64,000 nucleotides of DNA from Crystallibacter degradans. Its GTDB lineage: Bacteria; Actinomycetota; Actinomycetes; Actinomycetales; Micrococcaceae. Positions 55,810 through 60,387 of the stretch are shown piece after piece; positions within the stretch are counted from its first letter, which is position 1; the number at the start of each line of letters is the position of its first letter. The position numbers were made by a program, and so were the translations under genes. The notes beneath the pieces were generated by a model. The model saw nothing but the letters and a program-made list of their open reading frames with translations, was not told where the DNA came from and searched no databases. The DNA is taken from positions 496,001 through 560,000 of the forward strand of contig NZ_JABBCH010000001.1 in assembly GCF_012952295.1 (NCBI RefSeq), written 5' to 3'.

Positions 55810-56072
55810 GTGTCATCAACCGAAGCACTACCTCAGGAAACCAGCAATTCAACCCGCATGAGCCGCGGCTCACTCACCATGGCCTGGTACGGGTTGGTCA
55901 GCGCAATGTTCTTCGTTTACATCGGCGCCGCACTCGCCCAGGCCTACGGCACCCGGGACGCCTTGATCGGTCTGGGCCTGACCATCCTCAGCTACGGCCT
56001 CATCAACCGCGTCCTGGCCGGCTACGCACTGCGAAACGGCCTGACCGTCGCCCAGTTCTCCCGCTGCGCACT
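55810..56072 (+). pseudogene. NCS1-type (purine-cytosine/hydantoin) permease, 5' part, split by insertion
   Basis: GTG 55810 opens a frame with MSRGSLTMAWYGLVSAMFFV, a membrane helix, and GLTVAQFSR at the end of helix 2, as in NCS1 permeases. The frame is cut at about 56072. The rest of the gene resumes in phase at 59311 with LLGRTGALLATIIFAATAVY. Joined across the insertion it gives FSR-CA-LLGRTGALLAT in one frame. Product would be a proton- or sodium-coupled importer of hydantoins or uracil/allantoin; now inactive unless the element excises. Confidence 0.85.
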
Positions 56073-56320
56073 GAGGAATGATGGATGCCATGTGGCAGGG
56101 GAGGGGTTCCTGACTTACCCGCTGCGTGACGGCCAGCATTGACTGCTGGAACTGTCCAGGAGGAGATATGTCGGTTCCGTTCCTCTGCCACTCACCATGG
56201 GCGACCGGGCCGGACGGGAGTTGTGACTTGATAGGAACGTGCAGCTTAGCTCTTCAGTGCTTTGTCCGCCCGGCCCGGTCAACCGTGCTCGCCTCCATAG
56301 CCATCGACAGGAACGAGAAA
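56073..56320 (+). ncRNA. predicted IS110 bridge RNA
   Basis: The non-coding left end folds into two large loops. Loop 1: stem 56092-56101 / 56182-56191 (GTGGCAGGGG with CCTCTGCCAC, one G-U). It encloses a left guide CCCGCTGCG (56118-56126), identical to the target left flank at 56060-56068, an inner hairpin CCAGC/GCTGG, and a right guide GAGGAG (56160-56165), complementary to CTCCTC at 59311-59316. Loop 2: stem 56204-56213 / 56270-56279 (ACCGGGCCGG with CCGGCCCGGT). It encloses ATAGGAAC (56231-56238), identical to the right end, and CTTCAG (56252-56257), pairing with CTGAGG at the left end with one G-U. Exact RNA ends not determined. Confidence 0.7.
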
Positions 56321-56321
56321 C

Positions 56322-57428
56322 ATGACTCTTGTGACAAAGCGCCCTACCCGAGCCGTCACCATCGGCGTGGATACTCACTCACTCGTCCACCACGCAGCCG
56401 CGTTGGATGCCAACGGGCAGATGCTTGGCGATCGACGTTTCTCCACTGACTTGGTCGGCTATCAACAACTGCTGGACTGGGCAGACGGTTTTGGCACCAT
56501 CAGCGCGGTCGGCGTGGAATGCACCGGCTCCTATGGGGCGGGACTTACCCGTCATCTTCTTGCCGCCGGCTTGGATGTCCTCGAGGTGAATCGGGGGCAT
56601 GCGCTCGTCCGCAGCCGATCCGGGAAGAACGACGTCATCGATGCAGAAGCTGCCGCACGTAAAGTCCTCTCCGGAGAGTGTTCCTCACCGGCAAAAGACA
56701 CCACCGGAGCCGTCGAAGCGATCAGAAACCTCCACCTCATCCGTGATTCGGCCGTGAAATCACGGACAGCTACCCTCGTGCAGCTGCGCGACATCTTGGT
56801 TACAGCCCCTGCCGCCCTGCGCGGACGCCTCAACGCCAAGACCTTACAGGCCAAAGCTATGCAGGCAAGATCGCTTCGCCCCGACCTGGTCAGGCTGGAC
56901 GAGCCGGAGCAGGCAGCAAAGTACGCCCTACGGGAACTTGGTCGCCGGGCCTTTGAACTCACTGCGCAGATCAACGATGTCGACAAGCACCTCAACCGCC
57001 TCGTCACCGCTGTCGCGCCGACGACCATGACCCTGCCCCAAGTGGGGCCGGTTAGCGCAGCCCAGCTGCTTATTACCGCAGGCGAGAACATTAGCCGTTT
57101 TCCGAGCGAAGCAGCCTTCGCGCGGCTCTGCGGGGTGGCGCCGATACCGGTCGCGTCCGGTAAATCGCACCGGATGCGGCTACACCGAGGCGGCAACCGC
57201 CAAGCCAACAGAGCCATCTACCTGATCACCGTCGGGCGGCTAAAGTCCGATCCGAGATCTCAGGCCTACCTTGAGCGCAAACAGAGTCAGGGACATTCAA
57301 AGTCCGACGTGATCAGGAGCCTCAAACGATTCGTCGCCAGAGAGCTCTACTATGCCTTGAAAAAGGACCTCCAACTGCATACACGGATAGTTCCAGATAC
57401 GAATGTTTCAATTGGGTCAGCTGCTTGA
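56322..57428 (+). CDS. IS110-family transposase (bridge-RNA-guided DEDD recombinase)
   Basis: 368 aa. The RuvC-like DEDD domain is intact: VTIGVDTHSLVHHAAALDAN (Asp), GVECTGSYGAGLTRHLLAAG (Glu), VRSRSGKNDVIDAEAAARKV (the two Asp). The C-terminal Tnp_20 domain has LPQVGPVSAAQLLITAGENI and the serine region PIPVASGKSHRMRLHRGGNR. The non-coding RNA lies on the 5' side, which is the IS110 (not IS1111) arrangement. No frameshift is seen, so the enzyme should be active. Confidence 0.92.
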   Translation: MTLVTKRPTRAVTIGVDTHSLVHHAAALDANGQMLGDRRFSTDLVGYQQLLDWADGFGTISAVGVECTGSYGAGLTRHLLAAGLDVLEVNRGHALVRSRSGKNDVIDAEAAARKVLSGECSSPAKDTTGAVEAIRNLHLIRDSAVKSRTATLVQLRDILVTAPAALRGRLNAKTLQAKAMQARSLRPDLVRLDEPEQAAKYALRELGRRAFELTAQINDVDKHLNRLVTAVAPTTMTLPQVGPVSAAQLLITAGENISRFPSEAAFARLCGVAPIPVASGKSHRMRLHRGGNRQANRAIYLITVGRLKSDPRSQAYLERKQSQGHSKSDVIRSLKRFVARELYYALKKDLQLHTRIVPDTNVSIGSAA

Positions 57429-57650
57429 AGGACGCAAGAGTTTCGCCTCTGTCAAAGTGCTTCGCTGACAGCGACGCGACGACGGATACCTAAGTTATCC
57501 GCAGTTGTAGCTATCAGCTCTGGATGGCTTAGTCCACTTCCCACAGCATTTTCCCGAATTGCGGAATCGCTGATCACGATCAGGCATCACCCGGCTTCTC
57601 CACCTAGAACAGCGTTGACTTCACTGAATTTCTTATGTGAAGTCGTATCG
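57429..57650. other. gap between transposase and cargo gene 1
   Basis: 222 bases. A dyad CTGTCA (57449-57454) / TGACAG (57466-57471) may end the transposase transcript. No copy of the donor-end sequence ATAGGAAC occurs here, so the element does not end at this point. No gene seen. Confidence 0.4.
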
Positions 57651-58679
57651 ATGGATAAACGATCCATCAGGTCTCAATTTCTATTAGGGGAAAAATTGCA
57701 TACGTTCAAACGACGCTTAGTGGCGTCAGCGGGAACCGCTGCGGTTCTTCTGCTTGCGGGTCTAGGTCCTGCTCAAGCGGAAGAGTCCCAGGAGCACGGA
57801 ACCTTGGCAATTGTGGCGCCGGAGGTCCTTGAGGGCTCGTTGATGGCTGATGACCTTCGGGGCGCTCCGAGTGGTCCGATGTCTACACAAAATGGAGACG
57901 TAACGCTGCCCAGCGACTCATCTCGACCTGCCGTCATCCGCTCAGATGAGACAACCATTCGGGTTAACCTGCCAGCATCCGAGAAAAAGGCGAAAGCTGT
58001 CGCTGGTTCCGATGGGCAGGTGCAGTTCGACAACGGTGACGGTAGCATTACCAGCGCTCTGCCGAAGGAAGACGGATCGCTGCAGGTCGCAACTACGATA
58101 ACCTCCTCCGCTGCGCCAACGAGCTATCGGTACGGACTCGGCGTCGCTTCCGGTGCATCACTAGAGTTACGTCCCGACGGTGGTGTCGATATTGTCTCTA
58201 ACAAAGGTGAGTACCTCGGTGGAGTAGCGGCTCCGTGGGCGAAGGATTCCTCGGGGAGAGATATCGCTACCCACTATGAGGTGGCCGGCACGTCGCTTGT
58301 TCAGGTAGTGGCTCATACGGCCTCTAATGATGTGGCATACCCCGTGGTGGCAGATCCATGGTTCGGAATCGATCTTTACTACTCTCCGTATGTCACCTTC
58401 ACGTCGCAGGGATACAAGATCAATGTGAGCCCCACTTACTGGGGGACTCAAAACCGGGACGCGACAATTTGGTGGGCACATCGTGACGAAGTCCGCACAA
58501 AGCTAGGATCGAATTCCTGGCGGTGGACGAACTCAATTCAGGAGCAGTTCTATTGTCATATTGCTGGCTACCCTGCATCGCTTCCGGAATACAACCTTGA
58601 GTCTTGGAGGCCGACGATCAACTGGGCGACTTCCCTCACCAAGTACCGCTGCAACCCCTATGACGGCTACTGGTCTTAG
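57651..58679 (+). CDS. secreted protein with DUF2599-like C-terminus (cargo gene 1)
   Basis: 342 aa from ATG 57651 (a TTG at 57615 would add 12 residues). Signal peptide RRLVASAGTAAVLLLAG, cut near AQAEE. Middle: VQFDNGDGSITSALPKEDGS, a beta-rich repeat-like part, then VAYPVVADPWFGIDLYYSPY. C-terminus NSIQEQFYCHIAGYPASLPE and NLESWRPTI, then YRCNP recall DUF2599 of secreted actinobacterial proteins. The two Cys may pair. GC and codon use are lower than in flanking chromosomal genes, which suggests foreign origin. Role unknown. Confidence 0.7.
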   Translation: MDKRSIRSQFLLGEKLHTFKRRLVASAGTAAVLLLAGLGPAQAEESQEHGTLAIVAPEVLEGSLMADDLRGAPSGPMSTQNGDVTLPSDSSRPAVIRSDETTIRVNLPASEKKAKAVAGSDGQVQFDNGDGSITSALPKEDGSLQVATTITSSAAPTSYRYGLGVASGASLELRPDGGVDIVSNKGEYLGGVAAPWAKDSSGRDIATHYEVAGTSLVQVVAHTASNDVAYPVVADPWFGIDLYYSPYVTFTSQGYKINVSPTYWGTQNRDATIWWAHRDEVRTKLGSNSWRWTNSIQEQFYCHIAGYPASLPEYNLESWRPTINWATSLTKYRCNPYDGYWS

Positions 58680-58701
58680 GGCGACCCGGCTATAACTGAA
58701 A

Positions 58702-58740
58702 GGGTTGTTGGGCTGCGGATCCATGGCGGCCCAACAACCC
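58702..58740 (+). terminator. intrinsic terminator after cargo gene 1
   Basis: 12-base perfect arms GGGTTGTTGGGC (58702-58713) and GCCCAACAACCC (58729-58740), 15-base loop, followed by CTCTATTT. Confidence 0.75.
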
Positions 58741-58781
58741 GCCTCTATTTCACTTCAAATCAATATCTAACGGGGGCACCA

Positions 58782-59057
58782 ATGATTAGCAAAGTTCAGG
58801 CCATGTTTATCATCGGCATTGCACTTATCCTCGTGGCACTCAGCTTGGAATTTGCCATGTGGACATCGGCCTTCTCGCGCTTCATGTACTTAGAGGATCT
58901 GCAGGAGAAGCTAGAACCCGAGGTTTTCCGCCGTGTAGTGGCGATAAACCCGACTGAAAAGGCGCTGATAATAAGCGGTGCTGGAGTGTTCGTCGCGGGA
59001 GTGGTCCTGCTCGTACTCGGGCTGGTGAAAAGGAATCGAACAACCACCGCCGCTTAG
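58782..59057 (+). CDS. small membrane protein with two helices (cargo gene 2)
   Basis: 91 aa, ATG 58782 with GGGGG about 7 bases upstream. Helix 1 is MFIIGIALILVALSLEFAMW, helix 2 GAGVFVAGVVLLVLGLVKR, joined by an acidic loop (LEDLQEKLEPEVFRRV). Ends in RNRTTTAA. Family not recognised. It might form a pair with the secreted protein, as in effector/immunity or export pairs, but this is only a guess from position. Confidence 0.6.
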   Translation: MISKVQAMFIIGIALILVALSLEFAMWTSAFSRFMYLEDLQEKLEPEVFRRVVAINPTEKALIISGAGVFVAGVVLLVLGLVKRNRTTTAA

Positions 59058-59310
59058 CTGCGGTTGAGCTATTAGTTGGGTCCGACGCCAGACACCAACC
59101 TATGACAAAGCTCGATGGATATCGCTTAGTAGGCCCCGCCAGTAGATAGCCGTGGGGAACCAAGCGACAAAAAGTGGGAGACACGCCTCAGGACCGCCCG
59201 CCCAAGTCCCGGCCCTGATCCCTCCCGTCTATCGAAAGAAGACACGTTTCCCTCGACCGGCGGAGTGCAACCAGAGGACTTAACACCGTAAGACTTGCCT
59301 ATAGGAACAT
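59058..59310. other. non-coding right end of the IS110 element
   Basis: 253 bases without a convincing gene. The last 10 bases, ATAGGAACAT, contain the match to the predicted donor guide and border the CT core at 59311-59312. Confidence 0.5.
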
Positions 59311-60387
59311 CTCCTCGGCCGCACGGGTGCGCTGCTGGCGACCATCATCTTTGCGGCCACGGCGGTCTATTACGCGGTCTTCGAAGGCGCCATCCTCGCC
59401 TTCGCGTTCCAGGCACAGTTCGGCGGACCGATGGCACTCTGGTACGCCGTCGTCGTCGTGTACACCCTGCCCCTGGTCGCCGGCGGAATCCAGCGCTGGC
59501 TGGACAAGATCAACGGCTGGTTGCTGCCCGTGTATTGGGGCGGTCTGGTTGCCGCCGTCATCTGGGCCGGAACCGCCCACGGTTTCTCCGATGACTGGCT
59601 CACGCACTCGGTGCCGGCACTCGGGCTCGCCGAGGGCGGTCCGGGTTGGCTCGGCACCTTTGCCGCCTTCATGGGCGTCTGGATCCTCATGATGTACACC
59701 ATGGACTTCGCTGCCCTTGGCCGGCCCCGGGACGAGAAATTCCACAAGAGGTACACCTTCGGCTGGCTGTTCTACGCGCTGGCCTTCGGCGCAAACGCCC
59801 TGATCGGGATCTTCCTGACCTTCACCATCCCGGGCCTTGAAGCCACCGAGACCGGAGTGGCCGGCGGACTGGTCTCCCTCATGGGCCTCTTCGGCCTCCT
59901 GGTGGTCTTTGTTTCGCAGACGCGGATCAACACCGCCAACTATGCACTGGGCATCTCAAACCTGCGGGAGTTCGGCGAGCGTGCCTTCAAAGTGAAGCTG
60001 CCGCGAATTGTCTGGAACCTCCTCGGCGCCGGCATCATCTTCCTGCTGATGCTGCTGCCCGTGGTGCAGTACCTCCTGGTGGCTCTGTCCTGGCAGGGCG
60101 CCCTGGTCACCGGTTGGGTGGCGATCGCCCTGACGCACATTGCGCTGGACCGGCGCTCCGGCAGGCCCGTTGAACCCGGCCACCTGCCCGACAGTTCGTT
60201 CCCGACAGTAAACACTGCAGGCGTCGCCGCGTGGTGTGTTTCGGCCGCCATCGGTATCGGGCTGATCCAGTCCGGATTGGCCTGGGGATCGACGGTGGGA
60301 ACGCTGGTCACACCACTGCTGGCCGCCGCCATTTATGCCGGCCTCCGGCTGGCAAGCCGCACCAGAACGTTGCAGCCGCAGGCCTAA
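59311..60387 (+). pseudogene. NCS1-type permease, 3' part
   Basis: Continues the gene interrupted at 56072. About 358 codons with nine or so membrane helices: LLATIIFAATAVYYAVFEGA, then MALWYAVVVVYTLPLVAGG, DFAALGRPRDEKFHKRYTFG and TRINTANYALGISNLREFGE, typical of NCS1 permeases (CodB/PucI). No start codon or ribosome site is placed at the right edge to express this part alone; an internal ATG at 59431 would miss three helices. Ends before a T-run terminator. Confidence 0.85.

Follow-up and report, generated by a model that had tools for sequence, protein, structure and literature searches.

An IS110-family element with passenger genes in Crystallibacter degradans and its cargo-carrying relatives in the Micrococcaceae

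Here we describe a mobile block of 3,242 bp that lies within a permease gene of Crystallibacter degradans, in a 64,000-nucleotide stretch of DNA (the window) on contig 1 of a 4.96-Mb genome (G000; G, C and L numbers are our handles for genomes, contigs and loci). The block opens with a non-coding region predicted to fold as two hairpins, continues with the gene of an IS110-family recombinase and two further genes, and closes with a right end, after which the permease reading frame picks up again. By its recombinase, its guide region and its ends the element belongs to the IS110 family, and the cargo-bearing architecture is what is new about it. That the whole block forms a single mobile unit of the IS110 family, passengers included, has in our estimate a probability of about 0.92. 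Its features and flanks are as follows.

55810..56068, + strand: 5′ part of the permease gene, the left target flank, ending in CCCGCTGCG; six insert-free homologues are 76-80% identical
56069..59310, + strand: the entire mobile unit, CACTGAGG...AACAT; ends set by analogy with the empty sites of relatives
56069..56080, + strand: left end CACTGAGGAATG, right-donor half of the predicted circle joint, from the motif across relatives
56092..56191, + strand: predicted bridge-RNA hairpin with the target-binding loop; left guide CCCGCUGCG at 56118-56126, right guide GGAGGAG at 56159-56165
56199..56293, + strand: predicted donor-binding-loop hairpin; left donor guide AUAGGAAC at 56231-56238, right donor guide CUCUUCAGUGC at 56250-56260
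56322..57428, + strand: IS110 recombinase, 368 amino acids, by Pfam and NCBIfam
57696..58679, + strand: cargo gene 1, DUF2599 protein (DUF2599 at 1.1e-7, above cut-off); TTG start assumed
58782..59057, + strand: cargo gene 2, 91-amino-acid protein; all Pfam matches below cut-off
59294..59310, + strand: right end CTTGCCTATAGGAACAT, by motif search
59311..60387, + strand: 3′ part of the permease gene, the right target flank CTCCTCGG..., in the joined frame

The block in the permease gene

A preliminary description, made from the letters of this DNA, had proposed an IS110 transposase with cargo between 56073 and 59310. The family assignment is borne out by Pfam (DEDD_Tnp_IS110 at 2.2e-22, Transposase_20 at 6.1e-17) and by NCBIfam (transpos_IS110 at 179.5 bits, with a cut-off of 140); family profiles above cut-off place both the DEDD RuvC-like and the Tnp domain in the protein, which also matches the ISCro4 chain at 9e-9 and the IS621 chain at 1.2e-6. 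The proposed right edge stands, whereas the left edge moves to 56069 by analogy with the empty sites of relatives. With the block removed, the permease reads through 445 codons with no stop. A search of 120 genomes found the gene uninterrupted at 76-80% identity in six, two of which were read in alignment, so that the suggested look for an intact permease succeeded among these homologues but yielded no empty site for the window insertion in any close relative of the window strain. As had also been claimed, about 1.9 kb of lower-GC DNA with two extra genes follows the transposase: GC is 0.51-0.58 in 400-base windows from about 57.2 to 59.2 kb, compared with 0.59-0.68 elsewhere in 52-64 kb, and two open reading frames lie there.

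The right end sits 1.87 kb beyond the recombinase stop, downstream of both cargo genes, and no other right end was found past 57428 with up to 2 mismatches. The donor-loop letters AUAGGAAC recur in it (56231 and 59301), in agreement with the claimed donor-guide match of ATAGGAAC between the donor loop at 56231 and the right edge at 59301. The other donor guide corresponds to the opposite end, being complementary to GCACTGAGGA with one wobble; its reverse complement, GCACTGAAGAG, resembles the left-end GCACTGAGGAA, and the first mismatch is a wobble pair, so the donor guides match both element ends. The left region itself, 56069-56321, is non-coding and folds as two hairpins (z -3.02, with 0 of 200 shuffles as good), which places a predicted two-loop, bridge-RNA-like guide structure upstream of the recombinase. 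Checks of the window for open reading frames, domains, motifs and repeats turned up no other element that would explain the right edge. The ends, the joined permease frame, the domains and the motif counts given below together confirm the observation of a cargo-bearing IS110 element.

Shared ends, varied cargo and movement as a unit

Pattern searches covered 395 Micrococcaceae genomes, with reversed patterns as the control. The right-end 16-mer CTATAGGAACATCTCC occurs at 19 places in 13 genomes and the donor-loop motif at 15 places in 12, with both motifs present in 11; neither reversed pattern gave a single match, and 0 against 19 makes CTATAGGAACATCTCC more than chance. Twelve of the 15 left-end sites are followed on their own strand by a right end (ten exact, one with one mismatch in G192, and one across the start of the pASPHE302 record). 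The three places that have none are in G221 and G335, whose right ends lie on other contigs, and at a second G365 place with no recombinase match. The left-end motif, CACTGAGG followed by A or C, stands at all 17 distinct places printed (18 rows, L042 and L097 being one place), in a search that required this motif to within one mismatch and printed nothing for ISL28. At 14 of 17 loci the right end lies 0.34-16.8 kb past the recombinase stop (the smallest gap being 339 bp), which departs from the single-gene, short-right-end architecture typical of IS110. The elements measure 3.24 kb in the window, 18.1 kb in G003 (a weak internal right-end-like match at 11.75 kb was left uncounted), 4.07 kb in Sphe3, 2.98 kb in G365, 1.96 kb in G361, 9.0 kb in G263, 5.16 kb in MN05-02 (G331), 8.1 kb in G298, 9.9 kb in G192, 2.3 kb in M2012083, 2.4 kb in OV608 and 2.0 kb in USM2, while that of G255 runs 9.6 kb to a first right end and 23.8 kb to a second.

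Sequence comparison establishes these ends and their bracketing of varied cargo: the same two ends, for which a search had been proposed, enclose different genes in many genomes. We picked cargo open reading frames by a simple GC rule and scanned 40, of which 31 had a Pfam match and 9 had no family match (E limit 1e-5 in three scans and 0.01 in the last); functions are read from family names only. Across the relatives they comprise amino-acid catabolism, arsenic and metal handling, ion transport and unknown genes. The MN05-02 element carries proline-racemase, ornithine-cyclodeaminase and TetR families, annotated in its record as hydroxyproline and ornithine enzymes, and that of G263 carries ArsB, an ArsR-family regulator, two LMWPc proteins (arsenate-reductase-like by eye), a flavoprotein and MerR. 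G298 has Usp, CBS, P-II, DUF1538, an ion channel and an Na/H exchanger; G003 has PadR and an FtsX-like protein, with four of its six scanned reading frames unmatched. In G255 a first module, common to G192 by DNA similarity, encodes an E1-E2 P-type ATPase, DUF326, DUF305 and ZIP, a set that we take from the family names to be for copper handling, and a second encodes rhodanese, TauE, thioredoxin, lactamase-fold and MFS proteins.

Evidence that such a unit moves as one comes above all from Sphe3, where the chromosomal and pASPHE301 copies, cargo included, are identical over 4,074 bp with 0 mismatches and diverge abruptly on both sides into unrelated flanks; a third copy, on pASPHE302, whose right end spans the point where the record begins, is seemingly at the corresponding plasmid site. 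The chromosomal site, which we take to lie in a methyltransferase-like gene, is contiguous across the join in the other 100 of the 101 genus genomes searched, and ten printed sites show no indel. The G365 site is empty in plasmid pChr15, whose sequence is the same as that flanking the insertion for 41 letters on the left side and 44 on the right. The 18.1-kb block of G003 lies between flanks that encode two parts of seemingly one protein, and G192 and G255 have left end, recombinase and cargo in common (88.7% over 8.5 kb) at different sites. In most pairs of elements the similarity, among matches of at least 400 bp, stops near the recombinase stop. The Sphe3 block at unrelated sites and the empty sites of relatives are thus established by comparison, and together with the same ends around differing cargo they uphold the earlier proposal that the cargo lies inside the element and moves with it. 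The comparisons support an IS110 unit that moves as one with its cargo, and it may still excise and transpose today.

Such an arrangement might instead have arisen as a chance composite, in which a simple IS110 element entered the permease, the right edge derives from a second, partly deleted copy, and the DNA between them was trapped. Remnants of several elements do occur, since G255 and B1805 (G221; L107, L039) have two right ends each (L102 and L103 in G255), and an event of this kind may be how cargo was first gained. For the window block we nevertheless consider it very improbable: the block holds no second donor-loop motif or right end with up to 2 mismatches and no second recombinase match, the permease frame resumes at the right edge, 12 of the 15 left ends are followed by a right end on the same strand, and for Sphe3 the 4,074-bp unit at unrelated sites excludes it. 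Nor do we find it credible, except as an outside chance, that an ordinary IS110 element with its right end just past the recombinase was later invaded by another element that brought the 1.9 kb. The lower GC of that DNA, the sister-clade right end directly behind the stop (described below) and the IS256 inside the Sphe3 cargo, which shows that later insertions happen, would all suit such nesting; set against them, the sole right end after 57428 is the one at 59294-59310, it matches the donor guide of the IS110 element itself, 57429-59293 contains as repeats one direct pair of 18 nt and a hairpin at 58702-58740, which are not element ends, and no transposase or integrase domain occurs in either cargo protein. 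A composite transposon with an insertion-sequence copy on each side is dismissed by the single recombinase at the left, and a Tn3- or Tn7-type unit transposon by ends of which 7 of 30 letters match when compared as inverted repeats, by a repeat search that gave no inverted pair of ends, and by an IS110 protein as the only transposase.

A module that lies behind the first right end in G255, and behind a right end in G221, adjoins the recombinase directly in G335 (L109), which suggests how cargo grows. For G255 our model is the insertion of one element into another, followed by recombination between the two copies of the recombinase gene.

Guides and target sites

Several of the insertions, those of the Sphe3 plasmids, MN05-02, G263, G365, G361, G255 and M2012083, lie in a GC-rich hairpin site, which is uninterrupted on the element-free plasmids pDCT5, pChr15, FW306-07-I and pA2H2 and is found there just 3′ of a DUF4192 gene. 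When the joined MN05-02 site was compared with plasmids, no record reached 80% cover, and the hairpin was uninterrupted in the four of its ten records that were inspected. In the window, the guide letters match the site at 13 of 14 positions, and none of 13,579 background CT sites, taken from the window outside the element and from loci L047-L049, reaches 12.

According to the mechanism that we propose, a bridge-RNA-like transcript would arise from the left end, its donor loop would pair with the circle-joined ends ...TATAGGAACAT/CACTGAGGA..., and its target loop would pair with a target close to CCCGCTGCG-CT-CCTCC, where the recombinase would insert the circle. Since the right-end donor site lies far downstream of the stop, unlike that of an ordinary IS110, everything between would be carried as cargo. 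The expression and pairing of the RNA, the circular intermediate, present activity and a benefit from the cargo are all presumed in this scheme. At the left joint CA stands in the place of the target's CT. For the Sphe3 chromosome and G365 we rejected a clean core of two bases, CT, duplicated at either end, because the left joint there reads CA and the target CT. Work on the structure of IS621 (PMC11208158) considers it possible that mismatched nucleotides are excised and repaired once the strands have been exchanged, and such repair would fit the CA/CT joint.

A number of results weigh against an RNA-guided, cargo-carrying unit of this kind. Some concern the insertions: the joined window permease is 3 nt longer than all six homologues (judging from relatives, two of these would be the CA of the left terminus, which leaves one further nt), the window copy is the only one in its genome, with one left end, the two gene parts in G003 share a frame only if CA belongs to the element (a gain deduced there from the reading frame alone), and the G298 site has no clean empty counterpart in its best relative. 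Others concern the proteins and ends: the recombinases of G263, G192 and OV608 look broken, 3 of the 17 loci yielded no right end, and the right ends of USM2, OV608, M2012083 and G192 differ by at least one letter. The predicted RNA has no Rfam match in its left region and shows thin covariation: of the 54 pairs in a consensus fold built from nine left regions, 5 carry changes on both sides, 12 are broken or gapped in at least one row, and most of the others are invariant; the structural evidence for the two-hairpin guide region is supportive, not strong. Finally, in a shuffle test on 11 of the 16 elements with printed guides (the Sphe3 plasmid site included, the chromosomal one left out), the own-site matches on both sides together come to 110 against a shuffled mean of 104.1, and 2,107 of 100,000 shuffles were as good, a moderate result; the left guide alone was equalled in 2,334 and the right guide alone in 28,938, which is no signal. 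In the register used, the left guides of MN05-02 and of G263 each agree with their site at 1 of 9 letters. That the excess over shuffled pairings is moderate, and absent for the right guide, is partly because most of the elements share one target.

With these points counted, we lean towards a natural lineage of RNA-guided cargo transposons in soil actinobacteria, whose guides would home to the plasmid hairpin behind the DUF4192 gene and from there spill into chromosomes, whose cargo would become modular by elements landing in one another, and of which a subgroup with two target loops would hold two addresses per element.

The left regions of G365 (L097:1331-1735), Sphe3, G361, M2012083, OV608 and L041 are about 410 nt long and have two target-loop-like units before one donor loop, each unit carrying its own guide letters; a shorter version occurs in USM2. 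In the Sphe3 plasmids, G361 and M2012083 it is loop 2 that the right target fits, and in G365 it is loop 1. Folded as one 405-nt RNA, the G365 variant is no better than shuffles (z -0.18); because the single-sequence fold gives no support, the two-target-loop reading draws on sequence and guide letters only. A second left-end region in G365 (TACTGAGGAG, at L098 ~1759) has no recombinase match in its 12-kb stretch and is possibly a remnant. Strong GC-rich palindromes 3′ of DUF4192 genes on Arthrobacter plasmids (L144-L147 and the hot-spot flanks) are a frequent target.

Origin, known systems and the passengers

A tree of 27 recombinase rows unites the 14 of this kind from the Micrococcaceae in a single clade (100/100), next to which stand Nesterenkonia, Nocardiopsis and Leucobacter; a long-branch warning applies to other parts of the tree. 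Proteins of 250 residues or fewer (G263, OV608, G192, Leuco_cole and Brevi) were left out, and the Nest_LB17 row is another IS110 at that locus. The sister-clade recombinases of L047-L053 are about 53% identical and accompany a similar left region; their right end, TCTATAGGACCG, starts at most 5 nt from the recombinase stop with no cargo (L047-L053, L055 and L056; L056 measured 160 nt where a frameshift ends the frame early and 3 nt in a second measurement). The elements of this sister clade come from Leucobacter, Nesterenkonia, Nocardiopsis and Brevibacterium. The preliminary description had named, as the finding that would count against it, homologues with a right end within 100 bases of the recombinase and no cargo; these exist in the sister clade, yet not among the 14 Micrococcaceae loci that have a right end. 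An end beside the stop in the sister clade makes it plausible that the ancestor was an ordinary IS110 whose right end was later displaced, and on our best reading IS110 elements turned into cargo transposons once the right end moved away from the recombinase.

Tn3, Tn7 and the CRISPR-associated transposons (CAST) also combine a transposition module with variable cargo between fixed ends, and in this they are alike to the elements described here. They use other recombinase chemistry, inverted repeats and more genes, and their guides, where present, come from CRISPR. With IS621 and the bridge-RNA IS110 elements (PMC11208160, PMC11208158) the window element shares a DEDD recombinase with a Tnp domain, a predicted upstream two-loop guide structure and the lack of terminal inverted repeats (7 of 30 letters here), and its target agrees with the guides at 13 of 14 letters; it differs in the right end 0.34-16.8 kb past the stop across the family, the cargo between, and a left junction that reads CA against CT in the target. 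In Escherichia coli, IS621 is reported to insert cargo of several kilobases (PMC11208160). The seekRNA work on IS110 and IS1111 (PMC11187229) reports that cargo such as catA1 placed in or between insertion-sequence ends is moved and that ISEc11 moves engineered cargo; that cargo was inserted by the authors, whereas here it is natural and varied. IS110 is also listed among the transposases of prophage clusters in PMC6907783. Among the papers listed in the open-access literature searched, including PMC12500396, PMC7371123 and PMC11092175, with preprints outside the scope, there is no description of a natural cargo-bearing IS110.

IS110 recombinases are under development as programmable DNA inserters, and natural units 2-18 kb long reveal how evolution handles large payloads; their recombinases and guide RNAs are perhaps suited to long cargo. 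The family further suggests that genes for metal handling and catabolism pass among environmental bacteria, between their plasmids and chromosomes, along a route guided by RNA. That an insertion sequence becomes a transposon by parting one end from its recombinase gene can now be tested.

Within the window cargo, 267 bp without an assigned gene separate the recombinase from the assumed TTG start of the DUF2599 gene, and the hairpin at 58702-58740 falls between the two cargo genes. By eye, the DUF2599 protein has a signal-peptide-like N terminus and the 91-amino-acid protein two hydrophobic stretches. G365 encodes a 61% homologue of the DUF2599 protein, followed by a distant homologue (29%) of the 91-amino-acid protein, on a contig but not within its own element. 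Relatives of the DUF2599 protein occur in 69 of the 395 genomes, so that it is a common accessory gene not tied to the element. At L042:415-5416 in G365, the DUF2599 gene and the distant 91-amino-acid homologue stand about 0.8-1 kb behind a 1,082-amino-acid YD-repeat gene (Rhs-like by eye); that the two act as effector and immunity protein is a mere guess.

Contig C35 of the window genome bears a right end without a left end. Despite it, a second copy in this genome was rejected, there being a single left end. A 19.5-kb stretch on C35 (L111) is 99.985% identical to one on contig C10 of G007 (L110), in two species of the genus; the donor-loop motif is absent from it with up to two mismatches, and it terminates with the same right-end motif at a hairpin site of the plasmid type.

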